DNA of 64,000 bases, taken from Thiohalophilus thiocyanatoxydans. Lineage in GTDB: Bacteria; Pseudomonadota; Gammaproteobacteria; UBA6429; Thiohalophilaceae. The DNA lies in NCBI RefSeq assembly GCF_004366735.1, contig NZ_SOQX01000006.1:62001-126000 (forward strand), read 5' to 3'. Under the pieces are notes generated by a model. It had not been told where the DNA came from. It saw nothing but the letters and a program-made list of their open reading frames with translations, and searched no databases. Shown here piece after piece: positions 21,064-21,588 of the stretch. The position numbers and the translations under genes were made by a program. Positions within the stretch are counted from its first letter, which is position 1. Every line of letters begins with the position of its first letter.

Positions 21064-21395
21064 GCGCCCGTAGCTCATCCGGATAGAGCATCGGCCTTTA
21101 AGCCTCGTCTGAAATGACGAACCAGGAGCCTTTGCAGGGAAACCGAACCTGCAGAGTGGATCGCACTGTATCGGGGGAACCTTAACAGTTCGGCTGATGG
21201 CAATCCCGAGGAAACCGGTGGTTCGCCCTCTGGGCAATGTGATAAAATCACCGGGATCCGTAGAGGCCATACGTGCGGCACCTGAGACGGTGAAGAGATG
21301 GTCCAGACCCCAAACGGAAGCGATTTCCGGCAGCGAAAGCTGTAGCGGGTAAGCTAAGCCGAGGGTAGCAGGTTCGAGTCCTGCCGGGCGCACCA
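21064..21395 (+). tRNA. tRNA-Arg (anticodon UCU), interrupted by a group I intron
   Basis: Two exons form one tRNA: 21064-21098 and 21354-21395, with encoded CCA. Acceptor GCGCCCG pairs perfectly with CGGGCGC, D-stem GCTC/GAGC, anticodon stem TCGGC/GCCGA, T-arm GCAGG/CCTGC. After joining, the loop reads CUUCUAA, anticodon UCU, decoding AGA/AGG. GGA in the D-loop (A20) and C35 are arginine identity elements. The five-base variable loop excludes serine. The gene is split between bases 34 and 35, the same place as in cyanobacterial tRNA-Leu(UAA). Confidence 0.9.
21099..21353 (+). ncRNA. Group I self-splicing intron in tRNA-Arg
   Basis: 255 nt with no ORF of note. The last exon base is U and the last intron base is G, as group I splicing requires. 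P1: exon CUU (21096-21098) pairs with GAG (21127-21129), giving the U-G pair at the splice site; a UCGUC/GACGA hairpin extends the P1 loop. P4: CGGG in 21172-21182 with CCCG in GGCAATCCCGAG (Q element, about 21199-21210). P7: GGCCAT (21265-21270) with ATGGTCC (21298-21304), one bulged base, in the setting GTAGAGGCCAT ... AAGAGATGGTCC. A GAAA-capped hairpin CAGC/GCTG (21331-21342) resembles the P9 of the cyanobacterial tRNA-Leu intron. Exact P3, P6 and P8 pairings were not drawn. Confidence 0.88.
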
Positions 21396-21580
21396 AGTAC
21401 CTAAAGCAATGGGGTAGAGGTCGTATATGACTCCATTGCGAGATTGAGGCGAGGACGAGAACCTGCGTTATAAATCAGGCAGGTTCGACAAATCGGCAGG
21501 GATAGCCGATTTGGACGTCGCGAAGCGACGCCCGCAGGGCGAGGGGCAGGAGCCCCGAGTCAGTCCTGCCGGGCGCGCCA
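21396..21580 (+). other. Highly folded segment ending in a second copy of the tRNA-Arg 3' end
   Basis: The last bases, AGTCCTGCCGGGCGCGCCA (21562-21580), repeat the tRNA-Arg 3' end (21377-21395) with one difference. Between the copies lie consecutive exact stem-loops: GCAATGG/CCATTGC (21406-21439), GAACCTGC/GCAGGTTC (21459-21486), AAATCGGC/GCCGATTT (21490-21512), CGTCGC/GCGACG (21516-21530), GCCC/GGGC (21530-21540) and GGGGC/GCCCC (21543-21556). There is no matching tRNA 5' half, so it is not a second tRNA. It may be a residual integrated element bounded by att-like repeats, or a structured RNA co-transcribed with the tRNA. Confidence 0.6.
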
Positions 21581-21588
21581 TACTCAGG

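Follow-up and report, generated by a model that had tools for sequence, protein, structure and literature searches.

Group I introns are known from the bacterial genes for tRNA-Leu(UAA), tRNA-Ile(CAU), tRNA-Arg(CCU) and tRNA-fMet, and are of subgroup IC3. Introns of tRNA-Ile2 and tRNA-fMet are treated in the accessible part of one study (PMC8450103), and the accessible text of a 2007 survey lists four tRNA genes and a single PD-(D/E)XK enzyme, I-Ssp6803I, a homing endonuclease encoded by the intron of tRNA-fMet in Synechocystis (PMC1995217). Introns of tRNA-Arg(UCU) go unmentioned in the accessible text of that survey and of a review (PMC3984707). They were noted, however, as tRNA-Arg-TCT group I introns in Thiomargarita and Maribeggiatoa (Flood et al., 2016, PMC4853749; MacGregor, 2013, cited through PMC4853749); the available sections of that report give coordinates and describe structure and type as undetermined. 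An earlier note on the DNA studied here had regarded the UCU host, with the 34/35 position in a gammaproteobacterium, as uncommon. In view of these precedents the host is not new, and the status of a first report was rejected for the same reason. No study of an endonuclease-bearing tRNA-Arg(UCU) intron stood among the matches listed in the open-licence literature. Inserts of 22-49 nt in cyanobacterial tRNAs are also named group I introns in the accessible text of another paper (PMC5733544); in our judgement they are far too short to hold a group I core.

The window analyzed here is a 64-kb stretch (C6:62001-126000) of a gammaproteobacterial genome assembly of 2.9 Mb in 15 contigs. The split gene and the elements of its intron lie on its plus strand. 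A tRNA-Arg(UCU) gene at 21064-21395, with tRNA-Pro(UGG) on one side and tRNA-His(GUG) on the other (ARAGORN), is interrupted after U34 by an insert of 255 nt (21099-21353) that ends in G. Exon 1 (21064-21098, 35 nt) has U34 as its last base, and exon 2 (21354-21395, 42 nt) runs from C35 to CCA. Read from the sequence, the joined exons form a tRNA-Arg with anticodon UCU and full pairing of the tRNA stems. ARAGORN, with introns allowed, returned the same cloverleaf, named it tRNA-Arg (tct) and placed the 255-nt intron behind position 35 (locus L040), confirming the host assignment of the earlier note. Folded in full length, the gene reaches a z-score of -3.14, equaled by none of 100 shuffles. 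The split gene was invisible to ARAGORN without introns and to RF00005; because standard tRNA and Rfam searches miss the gene, genomes of this kind seem to have no tRNA-Arg(UCU). Another genome of the same genus (G038) carries this intron too, at 99% identity, which makes an assembly artefact unlikely.

Downstream of the tRNA, at 21401-21585, we observed an RtT-like repeat RNA, which scores 25.8 bits (E 0.012) against a cut-off of 45. It terminates in a repeat of the 3' end of tRNA-Arg, and within it 21433-21580 folds at a z-score of -4.96. Stretches like it accompany tRNA-Arg(CCG) (L013) and, in two places, tRNA-Arg(ACG) (L023) of this genome, as well as the tRNA-Arg(UCU) genes of G038 and of the intronless G029 and G032.

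The Rfam group I model RF00028, the covariance match sought after the earlier note, did not match the insert, even at E<=10 on short stretches, nor in a search of the whole source genome. The same model gave the tRNA-Leu(UAA) intron of that genome only 36.3 bits, under its cut-off of 50. The accessible text of a previous study likewise reports no significant RF00028 match where two subtype models did match (PMC6125680). A match to RF00028 is a detection aid and not a defining feature of group I introns. We then used a model, R2, whose seeds are 55 introns from Leu, Ile, Arg(CCU) and a few further tRNA genes, with Arg(UCU) not among them. At E<=10, R2 found a single match in the 64-kb window, at 21125-21312, with 100.9 bits and a rough E-value of 1.3e-27. 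The R2 alignment was fitted to model R1, seeded with the window intron, so that the independence of R2 lies in its sequences and not fully in its structure.

The core was examined in an alignment (A1) of 14 related introns from which the P6 loop was removed and in which the P2-P8 structure was read off the window sequence; two near-identical introns (L041, L044) and one in which the anchor was not found (L073) were left out. Over 36 pairs and 504 cells, 99.6% were paired, and 12 of the 36 pairs had changed on both sides; none of 500 shuffles scored as high on any measure. Slid versions of the structure gave 32-43% pairing and at most three pairs with both-sided changes. Both-sided changes affected seven of the nine pairs of P2 (21130-21138 with 21148-21156). 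P3 (21162-21166 with 21273-21277) has C-G, U-A, G-C or A-U as its first pair among 35 introns; P4 (21171-21175 with 21205-21209) and P5 (21180-21181 with 21199-21200) were counted in both the 14 and the 35 introns, and P8 (21279-21282 with 21289-21292) in the 14. P6 (21210-21211 with 21258-21259) is paired and invariant in the 14; P6a (21215-21220 with 21249-21254) was read from the sequence. P7, the guanosine-binding helix (21265-21270 with 21298-21303), is also invariant in the 14, but varies among the 35: the fourth pair is either C-G (20 introns) or U-A (15), the second either G-U (20) or A-U (15). P9 (21307-21310 with 21347-21350) and the hairpins of its region (21315-21329, and 21331-21342 with a GAAA loop) come from sequence reading only. 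The elements P1, P4, P7 and P9 named in the earlier note were therefore all recovered, P9 by reading. In principle, the insert could be removed in the archaeal manner, by a protein endonuclease and a ligase, with an accidental likeness to group I introns; the covariation of the group I helices, seen in comparisons of 14, 35 and 88 introns, and the R2 match leave this reading with a negligible probability. We conclude from these sequence comparisons that the insert belongs to the group I introns of the bacterial tRNA type, as first proposed, and is predicted to self-splice. Its subgroup is presumably IC3, as its likeness to other tRNA introns would fit.

The splice sites implied by the insert, 21098/21354, coincide exactly with the exon boundaries in the uninterrupted genes of relatives (...CTT|CTAA...), in agreement with the junction first proposed. 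In the window, exon CUU (21096-21098) can form P1 with the guide GAG (21126-21128), which places the U before the 5' splice site in a U.G pair, and exon CU (21354-21355) can form P10 with AG (21124-21125). Both helices were compared in 35 Arg(UCU) and 24 Leu(UAA) introns. Because the parse of the relatives demanded that exon 1 end in CTT, that G precede CTAA and, for most loci, that GGAG be present, these three features are no evidence in the relatives; the A of AG was left free. The two bases before GAG are AG in 32 of the 35 Arg(UCU) introns as parsed; of the three exceptions one, L119, had been misparsed and reads AG on inspection. In Leu(UAA) introns they are UU in 23 of 24, facing A35 and A36. 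The P10 guide thus follows the host anticodon, AG for C35 U36 in Arg and UU for A35 A36 in Leu.

We infer the following pathway from this arrangement. The transcribed RNA would fold into the P3-P9 core, the intron guide GAG would pair with the terminal CUU of exon 1, and a guanosine bound in P7 would attack after U34. The freed U34 would then attack after the terminal G of the intron, and the exons, with exon 2 held by P10 (AG/CU), would be ligated at U34-C35 to give the loop CUUCUAA.

Interrupted and uninterrupted genes occur side by side in the family. The intron was found in 9 of 40 genomes (G000, G001, G023, G024, G025, G030, G033, G037 and G038; G033 is partly masked), and an uninterrupted tRNA-Arg(UCU) in 21 (17 by exon reading; G006, G007 and G018 by exact pattern; G019 with one mismatch). 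Neither state was detected in the remaining 10, whose completeness is 70-92%. Three genera (g10, g16 and g17) contain both states. No intact second copy was found in the nine carriers by a pattern search allowing up to one mismatch, nor in the source assembly with up to two mismatches, which bears out the expectation that no intact tRNA-Arg(UCU) lies elsewhere; the same-genus G038, in three contigs, likewise has the interrupted copy only. We found 37 tRNAs in the source genome, with tRNA-Ile(GAU) and tRNA-Ala(UGC) missing, so that a region, perhaps an rRNA operon, may be absent from the assembly and could contain a second copy. Since carriers show no intact copy beside the intron, normal reading of AGA would require splicing, and the cell most likely depends on the ribozyme for it.

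The insert could instead be dead, the remains of an intron in a gene that no longer yields a tRNA, so that some other tRNA would read AGA. AGA is indeed rare (24 of 1088 Arg codons in the 37 ORFs of the window), and a broken copy of the same intron, fused to tRNA-Pro, is known in another genome of the class (G396, L127/L163). Decay is, however, hard to reconcile with the fully paired tRNA stems, with a core whose pairing is kept together with that of the relatives, with the near-identical copy in the same genus, and with the failure to find another UCU gene in this assembly or an intact second copy in any of the nine family carriers. We therefore regard a dead insert as very improbable and retain a functional, self-splicing intron as our reading.

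A second group I intron of this genome, 298 nt long, interrupts tRNA-Leu(UAA) after U34, near tRNA-Gly and tRNA-Cys (C2:~452496-452881; L032 497-882), and no intact Leu(UAA) was present among the 37 tRNAs. From a likeness to the cyanobacterial tRNA-Leu intron, the earlier note had raised the question of transfer between tRNAs, and a recent move of this Leu intron into tRNA-Arg(UCU) by reverse splicing has points in its favor: the donor exists in the same genome, both introns sit at 34/35, both use CUU/GAG in P1, and their 3' ends, with the GAAA hairpin, are nearly identical. We compared 88 cores over 140 columns in a tree without cyanobacteria (L200, in which the anchor was not found, was left out); its sequences came from R1 or from searches that took the window intron as their start, and RF00028 was the first to detect the own Leu intron. 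The 35 Arg(UCU) introns, 34 at position 34/35 and one (L126) at 36/37, formed one clade with a support of 100 against the 53 others. The own Leu intron fell instead into a clade, with a support of 98, that unites 14 Leu introns with two further introns of the class, and P7 differs between the Arg and Leu introns. A recent jump within the genome is thus unsupported and, in our view, very unlikely. The common 34/35 site and P9 GAAA hairpin alone are no proof of descent, and a deep common origin of the Leu and Arg(UCU) introns is compatible with a tree of 140 columns without cyanobacteria. The Arg(UCU) introns make up one lineage in it.

Some other hosts and sites were noted. The L126 intron (G071) interrupts tRNA-Arg(UCU) at 36/37 instead of 34/35, has the guide GGA and yet falls in the Arg(UCU) clade; the insertion site may have moved within this tRNA. 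Loci L136 and L160 read as group I introns in tRNA-Thr(UGU) and L142 as one in tRNA-Ser(UGA), all in genomes of the class, and the host of L144 is a tRNA-Arg(CCU) truncated by the contig end. ARAGORN with introns misnames hosts: its 'Gln(ctg)' is tRNA-Ile(CAU), by exon reading in L099, L141 and L154 and by likeness in the rest, its 'Ser(gct)' in L090, L092, L131 and L132 is in fact Arg(UCU), and several of its 'Phe' or 'Ser' labels are tRNA-Leu(UAA). Host labels outside Arg(UCU) are provisional for this reason.

Scanning genome_contigs for exact copies of a 19-base P7 motif returned 18 loci. Sixteen were introns of tRNA-Arg(UCU): 11 gammaproteobacterial, two from Desulfobacterales, and one each from Desulfatirhabdium, a Hydrogenimonas MAG and a Bacteroidia MAG. 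The other two, L080 and L083, were rejected as chance matches. With R1, 44 of 369 genomes of the class had any match, and 17 of the 369, in 12 families, had an Arg(UCU) intron at 34/35; G071, with the intron at 36/37, and G396, with the broken copy, come in addition. In the phylum, 24 of 398 genomes matched at E 1e-8, the source genome being the only one read as Arg(UCU); the larger R1 searches used stricter filters and lost weak matches. Searches centered on known carriers, which biases the rates they give, found matches in 5 of 194 genomes of the order of the Desulfatirhabdium record (G786), all five Arg(UCU), in 9 of 295 genomes of the class of the Bacteroidia carrier (G787), three of them Arg(UCU), and in 1 of 200 of the class of the Hydrogenimonas MAG (G785), that one being G785 itself. 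Misbinning of G785 is possible, because its intron sits at a contig end. The counts omit L046 and L087 (masked bases), L162 (a second copy in G284), the contig duplicates L071, L075, L076, L078, L081 and L086, and L212-L215 (the same genes as at other loci). Inside the Arg(UCU) clade, the Desulfobacterales and Bacteroidia introns are nested among the gammaproteobacterial ones, which points to horizontal transfer of the intron across phyla, as far as the core sequences can indicate it.

The P6 loop of some relatives contains an endonuclease gene of the PD-(D/E)XK type (PDDEXK_5). Over the 35 introns it is open in six and present as remnants in five, whereas 24, among them the window intron, have no trace of it at E 0.01; a seventh open gene lies in the broken copy of G396. 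All three of the proteins scanned matched Pfam PF11645, with 129.5 to 138.5 bits against a cut-off of 26.1 and E-values of 1e-37 to 1e-40 (best 1.9e-40). The L082 endonuclease also matched PDB 2ost, which we take to be I-Ssp6803I of Synechocystis (E 9.9e-5, 25.5 bits); the alignment spans 108 residues, and the D...VQVK stretch falls within it. The endonuclease frames stop at a UAG within the core motif CCGUAGAG. Endonuclease identity and core identity were correlated (r 0.89 for 15 pairs of six introns, the pairs not being independent), as expected if both travel as a unit. By its sequence, the PDDEXK_5 enzyme of the relatives is most likely a homing endonuclease, albeit a putative one.

As to other open frames, the broken copy in G396 has tRNA-Pro sequence as its 5' exon and a truncated 3' exon beside its open endonuclease frame. 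Three tRNA-Leu(UAA) introns of 684-698 nt (L109, L156 and L159) have a long open HNH-like frame that runs antisense to the tRNA, and the L156 protein, the one scanned, scores above the Pfam HNH and HNH_3 cut-offs.

Together, the distribution of the intron suggests that it spreads as a genetic parasite of one tRNA. The lineage may be an infectious element of tRNA-Arg(UCU) genes, in which the PDDEXK_5 endonuclease of some relatives most likely cleaves uninterrupted genes and thereby brings about copying of the intron into them. The window copy would have lost the enzyme, or never had it, and we propose that it persists because precise loss is rare and the tRNA needs splicing. Taken as a whole, we consider it very probable that the sole UCU gene found is split by a self-splicing group I intron of the kind seen in other bacterial tRNA genes, and that this is an enzyme-free copy of an infectious lineage.

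Homologues of the endonuclease also occur in phages. With the L085 protein, 24 of 50,697 phage records matched at E 1e-5 and 64 at 1e-3. We inspected 10 regions, picked for variety and extending 1.5 to 2.5 kb on each side, and a tRNA gene was present in every one. In Synechococcus phage Sf-FR1 a tRNA-Arg(UCU) is followed after 67 bp by the closest homologue (57.8% identity), and in Acinetobacter phage Herod one is followed after 21 bp by the second closest (40.4%). In Escherichia phage EC106, tRNA-Arg(UCU) is about 350 bp before the match, with tRNA-Ser(UGA) between them (ARAGORN). No tRNA-Arg(UCU) was found in the fetched stretch of the other seven regions. Phages often carry tRNA-Arg(UCU), and the position of the two closest homologues, both beside this gene, is suggestive only. 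Bonocora and Shub reportedly proposed a free-standing endonuclease beside its target as a step in the making of mobile introns, and the phage arrangement resembles that stage. Possibly, then, there is a PDDEXK_5 lineage specialized for tRNA-Arg(UCU) that exists in two states, free-standing beside an intronless phage tRNA and intron-borne in several bacterial phyla, with phages carrying the enzyme, and perhaps its target, between hosts; we put this forward tentatively and think it somewhat doubtful. If it were true, one tRNA gene would have its own parasite lineage, from endonuclease-bearing intron to enzyme-free remnant.

PDDEXK_5 homologues, several of them annotated as hypothetical, lie within or close to tRNA genes in phages that infect E. 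coli, Vibrio, Streptomyces, Klebsiella, Enterococcus and haloarchaea (L226-L233). The intron core pattern had no exact match in viral_contigs, and the endonuclease had no match in plasmids and none that was confirmed in viral_contigs; on these grounds we rejected the idea of a viral or plasmid vehicle for the intron itself. A weak R2 match in phage Herod (16.3 bits, L225 3300-3435/L234), truncated where the stretch ends, was rejected as a tRNA intron; it has an HNH gene on one side and lies upstream of the gene for the large subunit of terminase.

The lineage offers a natural series of a tRNA parasite, from empty sites to introns with an open, a broken or no endonuclease gene, and this series spans one family and several phyla. 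How such an intron chooses and reaches its tRNA becomes directly testable through the fit between P10 and the host anticodon and through the phage homologues that adjoin tRNA-Arg(UCU).

The window intron has the core of the known bacterial tRNA group I introns, as its detection by a model of other tRNA introns indicates, and has the 34/35 site in common with those of tRNA-Leu. It differs from them in its host tRNA, in its P10 guide and in forming a separate clade. Likeness to I-Ssp6803I runs through the L082 match to 2ost, D...VQVK included; the host tRNA is another one, the similarity is low, and the window intron itself has no such gene. The closest systems are the introns of Thiomargarita and Maribeggiatoa, which, by the descriptions in the accessible text (PMC4853749) and not by aligned sequences, agree in host tRNA, in class (Gammaproteobacteria) and, in one genome, in having the same pair of interrupted tRNAs. 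The kind of intron is thus already known; to it we add the splice site, structure, phylogeny and empty sites of the lineage, the endonuclease of its relatives and the link to phages.
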